From: Paludibacter sp.
Lineage (GTDB): Bacteria > Bacteroidota > Bacteroidia > Bacteroidales > Paludibacteraceae
Length of the DNA: 64,000 nucleotides
Assembly: GCA_027450045.1 (NCBI GenBank)
Contig: DAIDKM010000001.1
Location: 58,610-122,609, forward strand
Direction: 5' to 3'
The notes below the pieces were generated by a model that did not search any database, was not told where the DNA came from, and saw only the letters and a list, made by a program, of their open reading frames with translations. A program made the position numbers and the translations under genes. How positions within the stretch are numbered: the first letter of the stretch is position 1; the number at the start of each line of letters is the position of its first letter. This document shows positions 47,939-51,119 of this stretch, in pieces.

Positions 47939-47958
47939 TTGGTTGTTTTTTTTATTTG

Positions 47959-47966
47959 CAAAATTA
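47959..47966 (-). promoter_or_regulatory. Putative -7 box TAATTTTG for rlmD
   Basis: CAAAATTA on plus strand. Confidence 0.4.
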
Positions 47967-48330
47967 AATATTTATCTCGGGTATTCAAAAAGGAAGTAGA
48001 GGGAACCCTTGTTATCATAGCAATATCTTCAGCTGGCCTTAGATATTATGCAAAAAATCGAATTCTCAGTACGTCCATATCTATTCAATATCACTTTAAA
48101 ATGTTATATATCATATAATTATAATTGTTTTTTGAGATCGAATTCATGAGATTGTTTTTAAGATTATCCCGCAAAACAGACTTAGGAGCGTGAAACACAA
48201 AAAAGAGCATTGAATTCTATCATAGGGTTTCGTATTAACGCAAAATTGTACAGATGAAAATAAATTGGAGGGAAGGTATGCGAATTAAGAAAGGATTGAT
48301 TGGCAGATTTGGCAATGCATAATCTCTAAT

Positions 48331-48340
48331 TACATTTGTA
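48331..48340 (+). promoter_or_regulatory. Dyad TACATTTGTA, site 1
   Basis: TTACA-TT-TGTAA perfect dyad; contains TACATTTG -7-like box. Confidence 0.55.
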
Positions 48341-48388
48341 AACGCATAAACCAAGTACAAAGTTACACTTCTTCGAGATACAATGCTC

Positions 48389-48398
48389 TACAAATGTA
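48389..48398 (-). promoter_or_regulatory. Dyad TACATTTGTA, site 2 (inverted)
   Basis: TACAAATGTA on plus strand. Confidence 0.5.
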
Positions 48399-48730
48399 CT
48401 TTTTGTAATGCCGATTGATCTCCTTTTACAAAACAACAAAATAGCATTATTGTTTATTACTATCATGGAGTATTTGGCAATCAAATTATTGTATATCAAT
48501 ATGTTGTTGTTAAATATTAAACTCATAATTGAATGCCATTCTTTTATCATTATAGAATTTGATCAGATTGCCACCAAAACGTATATTGTATAAGTCTTAC
48601 TATTTATATATCAATACAATATAGACGTTTCATAAATCATTAGTTTTCTATGGTCTATTAGATATGGCCTTTCTATAGTGTATTCGTTATCAACTCTGTC
48701 TAAACAATACTATATGTAGTTTGCGTTATT

Positions 48731-48740
48731 TACATTTGTA
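48731..48740 (+). promoter_or_regulatory. Dyad TACATTTGTA, site 3
   Basis: TTACATTTGTAA. Confidence 0.6.
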
Positions 48741-48759
48741 ATGCGTATTCTTGCTCAAA

Positions 48760-48769
48760 TACATTTGTA
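48760..48769 (+). promoter_or_regulatory. Dyad TACATTTGTA, site 4
   Basis: ATACATTTGTAT. Confidence 0.6.
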
Positions 48770-48797
48770 TTGTATTGCTTTTGTGAATTTGTTTGTT

Positions 48798-48807
48798 TAC
48801 ATTTGTA
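48798..48807 (+). promoter_or_regulatory. Dyad TACATTTGTA, site 5
   Basis: TTACATTTGTAG, 28 nt upstream of the HTH gene ATG. Confidence 0.6.
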
Positions 48808-48835
48808 GCGTGGTTGAAATGTAATAATAATTGCC

Positions 48836-49282
48836 ATGAAAGATAGAATTCTACAAATCATAGAGACTGAGCATCTCACATCGGGTAAATTTGCTTTGAC
48901 TATCGGTACACAACCGTCTATCATTTCTCATATATTAAACGGAAGAAACAAACCGAGTATGGAAATTATTCAAAAAATTCTTTCAACGTTCCCTACAGTC
49001 AATCCTGACTGGCTAATATTAGGATCCGGCTCGATGTATCGCTCATCATCTTTCGTGTCAGGCCAGCCGTCATTATTTGATGATGTAAAATCTAAAACGT
49101 CTGACACGAATCAAAAGTTGATTTTCAGCAAGGAAATAGCTGGCACTTCAAAAGAAGATACTTCTTCAGTTCTCAATACCTCATTATCTGCTATTGTTCA
49201 AGCAAAAAAAATCAATAAGATAACAGTCTATTATTCAGACATGACGTTCGAGGAATTTATACCATCAACTTCTATTTTGTAG
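48836..49282 (+). CDS. XRE-type helix-turn-helix regulator
   Basis: N-terminal HTH (KFALTIGTQPSIISHILNGRNKPSMEIIQKILSTFPTVNPDWLILGSGSMY). Confidence 0.88.
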   Translation: MKDRILQIIETEHLTSGKFALTIGTQPSIISHILNGRNKPSMEIIQKILSTFPTVNPDWLILGSGSMYRSSSFVSGQPSLFDDVKSKTSDTNQKLIFSKEIAGTSKEDTSSVLNTSLSAIVQAKKINKITVYYSDMTFEEFIPSTSIL

Positions 49283-49443: not shown

Positions 49444-50217
49444 ATGAAAAAAATCATCGGAGATTTGGTTGTTTCAGAGAATATCCCATTGAAAAACAAT
49501 CATTTCTTATTGAAATTAACTCAAGCTGAGCCATTGCCTCATATATTGCCAGGCCAGTTTGTGCAGTTGAAAATTGACGATACCCCTTCTGTTTTTTTAA
49601 GACGTACCTTTTCAATAAACTACGTAGATCGCAAAAAAAATGAGATTTGGTTATTAATTCAAGTTGTAGGTGATGGAACGCGTTCATTAAGTAATTGTAA
49701 AATAGGCGATTCATTAAATCTCATTTATCCATTGGGAAATTCATTTTCTATGCCAACTTCTTCACAATCAAGGTTATTATTGGTTGGAGGCGGAGTAGGA
49801 GTGGCTCCTTTGTTATTTTTAGGTGCAATATTGGCAGAAAAGGGTTTTTCGCCTTCTTTTTTGCTTGGAGCACGAAATATCGATGGATTGATTGAACTTG
49901 AAAAATTTCAACAGTTTGGAGACGTATATATTGCCACTGAAGACGGATCGGCTGGTGAAATCGGTTTTGTGACTGATCACTCAATCTTGAAAAATTCGTT
50001 TGATAAAATCTACACTTGTGGACCGACGCCAATGATGCAAGCTATCTCTCAATTTGCAGAAAATCAATTTATTGATTGTGAAGTTTCTCTCGAAAATAAA
50101 ATGGCATGTGGCATTGGAGCTTGTCTGTGTTGTGTTACACAAACTCATCAAGGCAATCAATGTGTCTGTACAGATGGACCAGTATTTAATACAAAAGAGT
50201 TGGCATGGCAAATTTAA
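49444..50217 (+). CDS. pyrK: Dihydroorotate dehydrogenase electron transfer subunit
   Basis: [41 protein letters not shown]...CVCTDGPVF. Confidence 0.95.
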
Positions 50218-51119
50218 CGACAAAAATAGGTGACCTTACGCTAAAAAATCCTGTTATTACAGCTTCCGGCACGTTTGGATACGGCGAAGAATATCTTGAT
50301 TTTTTGGACATCAATCAATTAGGAGGTATTTGTGTCAAAGGCACAACGTTGCACCGACGAGAAGGAAATCCTTATCCAAGAATGGCGGAAACGCCATCCG
50401 GCATGTTGAATGCGGTAGGATTGCAAAATAAAGGGGTTGATTATTTTATAAATACAATTTATCCCCGTCTAACAGTATTTGAAACCGCATTTATTGTCAA
50501 TGTTTCTGGCTCAACATTAGAAGATTACATTGAAACAGCTGAAAAAATAAATTCATTGTCATTTATTCCTGCAATTGAATTAAACATATCATGTCCTAAT
50601 GTAAAACAAGGTGGTATGGCCTTTGGCGTTGACAAAGATATGGCAGCAGAAGTGGTTAAAGAGGTTCGCAAAGTGTATCATAAAACACTGATTGTTAAAT
50701 TGTCACCTAATGTAACTGACATTGTTTCCATAGCAGAAGCTGTTGAACACGTAGGCGCTGATGCAGTGTCGCTTATTAACACTTTATTAGGGATGGCTAT
50801 TGATGCTGAAACACAAAAGCCATTACTATCAACTATTACTGGAGGTTTATCGGGTCCATGTGTCAAGCCAATTGCGTTACGTATGGTGTGGCAAGTTGCT
50901 CATGCAGTGAAAATTCCTGTCGTTGGGATGGGTGGAATTAGTAATGCGCGCGATGCAATTGAATTTTTCTTAGCTGGGGCAACAGCTATTGAAGTGGGAA
51001 CTGCTAATTTTATTGATCCAGCTGTTAGTCTTCAAGTAATTCAAGGCGTTAACGATTATTTACAACGCCATCATTGTGAGTCAATTAATGATATTATTGG
51101 TGCCTTGAAAACAGTATGA
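50205..51119 (+). CDS. pyrD: Dihydroorotate dehydrogenase catalytic subunit (class 1B)
   Basis: [71 protein letters not shown]. Confidence 0.97.

Follow-up and report, generated by a model that had tools for sequence, protein, structure and literature searches.

Cis-regulatory logic is poorly mapped in Bacteroidota, and the locus analysed here raises the question of what a widely kept regulator controls when its only evident target is itself. In the window, which is the whole 64-kb stretch of DNA under study, the gene of an XRE-type regulator of 148 amino acids (48836..49282, forward strand; Pfam HTH_3) is preceded by a non-coding gap of 897 bp (47939..48835), with a GC content of 29% compared to 37% for the window. 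The gap holds five copies of a short dyad in two clusters. This two-cluster region looks like an old self-control switch, probably acting through a DNA loop; all the evidence is comparative and comes from loci that are related.

Five exact copies of the 10-mer TACATTTGTA are found at 48331 (+), 48389 (-), 48731 (+), 48760 (+) and 48798 (+), where the preliminary description had placed them, and the extended forms that it gave also match the sequence. The putative distal operator D1 (48331..48340, forward strand) is an exact match reading TTACATTTGTAA at -505 from the ATG and belongs to the distal cluster, which is kept throughout the order at about -400 to -600. The putative distal operator D2 (48389..48398, reverse strand) has an inverted centre, reads TACAAATGTA on the forward strand and lies 58 bp from D1. 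The putative proximal operators P1 (48731..48740, TTACATTTGTAA, -105) and P2 (48760..48769, ATACATTTGTAT, -76), both on the forward strand, are aligned in the genus, and the putative operator P3 (48798..48807, forward strand, -38) contains a putative -7 box, TACATTTG, at 48798-48805. No further copy of TACATTTGTA was found in the window, for which dinucleotide shuffles gave a mean of 0.31 and a maximum of 2 copies, with at least five in none of 100 shuffles. A genome-wide count had also been suggested. The source genome (2.96 Mb) contains 13 exact copies compared to 14 of the reversed-form control, indicating that TACATTTGTA is not globally enriched and is no common promoter word; yet 5 of the 13 are packed within 477 bp, all in the gap before the HTH gene. 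None of the remaining eight is clustered, and four of them fall inside long open frames. The 12-mer TTACANNTGTAA has only two genomic occurrences, both within the same gap.

The regulator scores 31.2 bits against HTH_3, compared to a curated cut-off of 23, which assigns it to the XRE/HTH_3 family. It is single-copy in the source genome and was matched in 53 of the 61 genomes searched, the gene being absent from the other eight. The structure predicted by AlphaFold2 with a 63-row alignment has an HTH domain of five helices (residues 1-69, mean pLDDT ~97), a low-confidence linker (residues 70-127) and a C-terminal beta hairpin with strands 129-132 and 138-141 (mean pLDDT of the hairpin block ~95). 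The hairpin sits on a motif reading like KIIVFYSDNTFEEF in many orthologs. The nearest solved folds are those of 434 repressor/Cro, P22 c2, HigA antitoxins and DdrO, which match the HTH domain only, with modest E-values. The chromosomal housekeeping neighbours and a C terminus that is only a short hairpin speak against a prophage repressor. The locus does not fit a toxin-antitoxin pair of the HigBA type either, as no toxin gene adjoins the regulator, its neighbours being an rlmD-like methyltransferase gene and pyrK/pyrD-like genes.

Conservation upstream of orthologs had been named as a check on the dyad, which proved to be present across the order and beyond. Set 1 comprised 48 loci from relatives, oriented and with the start codon located, of which 45 orthologous loci were used for the palindrome count. 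When the 700 bp upstream of the gene were scanned for every four-base palindrome with a gap of 0 to 8, TACAnnTGTA was by far the top palindrome, with 89 sites compared to 2.0 expected, in 37 of the 45 loci. The held-out set 2, consisting of 76 loci from named genomes including Parabacteroides, Dysgonomonas, Labilibaculum, Marinifilum, Alistipes and many Bacteroidales MAGs, repeats this pattern. The dyad density in set 2 is 10.9 per kb at -100..0 and 4.7 at -200..-100, drops to 0.96 at -300..-200 and 2.1 at -400..-300, rises to a distal peak of 4.9 at -500..-400 followed by 2.3 at -600..-500, and is 0.06 far from the gene. The bimodal density in two independent sets points to two separated, putative operator clusters. 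Clustering of the proteins at 50% identity yielded 60 groups, in which relatedness is reduced with some residue, and these groups hold 132 dyad sites compared to 1.7 by shuffling. Proximal sites are present in 43 groups, distal sites in 34 and both in 26. The exact dyad is absent from about 15% of the clustered loci, several of which carry near-matches such as TTTACATTTGTGA or TTTACTTTTGTAA. In three loci (L077, L146 and L151), TTTACTTTTGTAA replaces TTTACATTTGTAA just before the HTH start, possibly with a changed operator specificity. One locus lacking the dyad (L135) has another strong palindrome, AAAAACCTGTCAGGTTTTT, at -70 (about 2931-2950 in that locus), possibly a terminator or else an altered operator. 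Outside the order, loci of further orders in the class likewise have the dyad directly before the gene.

The Bacteroides promoter rule, which comes from B. fragilis and is given here as cited in a B. thetaiotaomicron map (PMC7366714), consists of TAnnTTTG at -7 and TTTG at -33. All eight genus members share one and the same sequence, GTTTACATTTGTAG, around the start-proximal operator, and it fits TAnnTTTG in the form cited there. The dyad centre is TT in 60 of the 78 sites located at most 70 bp from the ATG (18 of 20 in set 1 and 42 of 58 in set 2), as would be needed for a -7 box that overlaps the dyad on the coding strand. In addition, the orthologs show TTG peaks at distances of 14, 16 and 20 bp ahead of the proximal site, and they do so for proximal sites only. 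Based on these peaks and on the -33 rule as the map cites it (PMC7366714), two TTG triplets on the forward strand at 48775..48783 (48775-48777 and 48781-48783) are candidates for the -33 element. The transcription start in the window is predicted near 48812. The distal dyad centres are mixed (pooled AA 40, TT 23, plus others), and no TTG peak was found upstream of distal sites in either orientation across the loci. The proposal that every dyad carries a -7 box is therefore retained for the start-proximal site and stays tentative for the others. As in an autorepressor, conserved dyads lie in the regulator's own promoter and overlap the core element TAnnTTTG. The core idea of the preliminary description, namely that the downstream XRE protein uses the dyads as operators for a two-cluster autoregulation, is strongly supported by the ortholog conservation and by the near-exclusive paired dyads described below. 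We consider it very probable that the XRE protein regulates its own gene through these dyads.

The arrangement of the dyads is regular within the clusters. Spacings between dyads of one cluster peak near 24, 34, 46, 58 and 68 bp, the D1-D2 distance of 58 bp being one of these preferred values. The within-cluster period is 11.2 bp, with a power of 47 compared to the null 99.9% value of 10.4, and it is 11.3 bp when one locus is taken per 50% cluster (power 15.6 compared to a null of 9.5); set 1 alone gave a weaker periodicity with a power of 7.4. This suggests that neighbouring dimers would be held in a fixed relation around the helix. The distance between the nearest sites of the distal and proximal clusters varies from 182 to 550 bp, and its periodicity is weaker, with a power of 13.2 compared to the 99% null of 9.0, relatedness being uncorrected in this value.

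The DNA between the clusters was analysed by an unseeded EM motif search of set 2 with the dyads masked. The search returned ATCAgtTAtTTA and aatATCAgTtatTTA, both of which match the IHF consensus, WATCARNNNNTTR; the term IHF-like refers here to this match. Visual inspection of three genus members had already pointed to ATCAA elements, so that the unseeded search, run on other loci, is the fairer test. Two IHF-like sites matching the consensus lie between the clusters in the window, AATCAAATTATTG at 48479..48491 and TATCAATATGTTG at 48494..48506, both on the forward strand, and the two closest relatives (L044 and L045) have AATCAA...TTA at -340. Two adjacent sites in one genome alone would mean little. 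The unseeded search suggested a relaxed pattern, of which 19 sites in set 1 and 34 in set 2 were counted at -420..-120. The relaxed pattern is strong in both sets, whereas the strict pattern is strong in set 1 and reaches only p ~0.02 in the held-out set. Genome-wide, the pattern outnumbers its own reversed form 3.5-fold, so permutation tests overstate the enrichment, and other non-coding DNA of the same loci was used as control. The gap holds 76 sites in 35.1 kb (2.17 per kb) compared to 32 in 46.4 kb of other non-coding DNA (0.69 per kb), resulting in a fair enrichment of about threefold; the corresponding numbers for the reversed pattern are 9 and 8. IHF-like sites occur in 32 of the 60 groups and peak at -400..-200, between the operator clusters. 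The genome has six PF00216 hits to HU/IHF-family genes. Two such genes lie side by side (G000 contig C1:207401-207959) and may form a heterodimer pair.

Based on the conserved layout, we propose that the 148-residue XRE protein is an autorepressor and that TTACAnnTGTAA is its operator. Dimers would bind the proximal operators cooperatively via the HTH domain. One of these operators would hold the -7 box of the regulator's own promoter, which would be shut off upon binding. The second cluster, which typically lies 340-480 bp further upstream, would be brought to the promoter by contacts between bound dimers, possibly through the C-terminal hairpin on its flexible linker, and a protein of the HU/IHF family would bend the DNA between the clusters. 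The outcome would be a tight, cooperative and homeostatic control of the regulator's own level. Helical phasing, IHF-like sites in between and the conservation of the two-cluster layout raise the likelihood of the looping that had been suggested for the two clusters. We infer the loop itself, as well as the bender, the binding of the protein to the sites and the sign of the regulation. The full version, in which autorepression is combined with a distal cluster joined through a loop and an HU/IHF-family bender, is the reading that we favour, with moderate confidence.

Autorepression might also proceed without a loop. The proximal operators would then act alone, and the distal cluster would serve as a reservoir of sites or as a decoy array that sets the concentration of free regulator. 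The proximal cluster is indeed denser, the -7 sequence is firmly tied to its last site, and 17 of the 60 groups have proximal sites and lack exact distal ones. However, such a scheme leaves unexplained the distal position of the second cluster, the dip between the clusters, the IHF-like sites located there and the conserved length of the gap, and we consider it rather unlikely. The intergenic distance has a median of 835-903 bp upstream of the gene compared to 69-88 bp downstream (ORF-based and approximate). The upstream neighbour is rlmD-like and divergent in the genus, and other genes on either strand take its place elsewhere. As the long gap is kept while the upstream neighbour changes, the gap belongs to the regulator gene.

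Looped autorepression was further weighed against a distal cluster that controls a second promoter in the gap, whose product, a small RNA or a divergent transcript, would be co-repressed by the XRE protein. The gap has room enough for it, TAnnTTTG occurs in distal sites, and AA, which would give an outward -7 box, exceeds TT among the pooled distal centres. However, the upstream neighbour differs between genera, and the distal sites have no preceding TTG peak in either orientation. In addition, no conserved ORF was found in the gap across the loci, no Rfam match was obtained, and six aligned loci of the gap gave no consensus RNA fold (-0.31 kcal/mol). These results speak against a hidden gene or a structured RNA in the gap, and we regard the second promoter as quite improbable. 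The divergent transcript that the preliminary description had envisaged from the inverted second site gained no support, as no divergent gene and no conserved RNA were found. The word TAAAGT (often CTAAAGT or ATAAAGT, coding strand) is enriched in the gap, in 27 of 108 loci compared to 8.4 expected. It lies at about -230..-90 (~48606-48746 in the window), with the IHF-like sites on one side and the proximal operators on the other.

Targets beyond the regulator locus were searched for in the 61 genomes. In this collection, the 12-mer TTACANNTGTAA does not exceed its reversed control. Paired dyads number 34 compared to 2 of the reversed control, and 28 of the 34 lie at the regulator locus by position; the other six are at unrelated genes, with no gene in common, and the eight genomes without the regulator gene contain none. 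With paired dyads almost exclusively at one locus and TTACANNTGTAA at control level, there is no sign of a large regulon. The conserved region of 0.5-1 kb could be more than a promoter, namely a dedicated chromosomal nucleoprotein site, where the XRE protein and an IHF/HU-type bender would form one phased, looped complex per chromosome and the protein would mainly serve that structure, for example in nucleoid organisation or cell-cycle timing, rather than target genes; we hold this to be very unlikely.

The regulator is followed by pyrK- and pyrD-like genes (49444-51119). The pyrK-like gene (49444..50217, forward strand; DHODB_Fe-S_bind) may be a secondary target by read-through, and pyrKD is a possible target in the same way. 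The linkage is common and not universal: in 55 of 124 loci, pyrK lies downstream of the regulator gene in the same orientation. Upstream operator clusters are typical of activators too. Nevertheless, that the XRE protein activates its own promoter or tunes pyrK-pyrD by read-through is hardly credible. The overlap of the start-proximal operator with the -7 box itself favours repression, pyrK does not adjoin the regulator gene in more than half of the loci, and the pyrK of the window begins 161 bp past the HTH stop codon.

The analysis thus yields a putative operator kept across the order and beyond, together with a testable regulator, and a conserved locus at which a repression loop with a bender of the IHF/HU type is a candidate mechanism. 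The literature search returned no paper naming this operator in Bacteroidota, and nothing relevant on repression loops with a bender of this type in Bacteroidota. Among known systems, the HigA antitoxins of P. vulgaris and P. aeruginosa are similar in being HTH autorepressors at short AT-rich palindromes in their own promoters, and P. vulgaris HigA is a fold match to the regulator. In P. aeruginosa, cooperative HigA dimers bind TTAAC-GTTAA (PMC6987408). Unlike HigA, the present regulator has no adjacent toxin gene, two distant clusters and a conserved single-copy position among housekeeping genes. The lambda, 434 and P22 repressors share with it the XRE-fold HTH and the clustered dyads over the own promoter, and lambda repressor is also known for long-range looping. 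In contrast to these repressors, the regulator is non-prophage and has a short hairpin only instead of a large C-terminal domain; its half site is TTACA, and the distances are a few hundred bp, not kilobases. If the loop is real, the locus would resemble the GalR/HU gal loop of E. coli, where a repressor occupies two separated operators, a bender acts between them and the promoter is silenced. However, GalR belongs to the LacI family, whereas the present locus combines a small XRE protein with several sites per cluster, a longer spacer and IHF-type sites.
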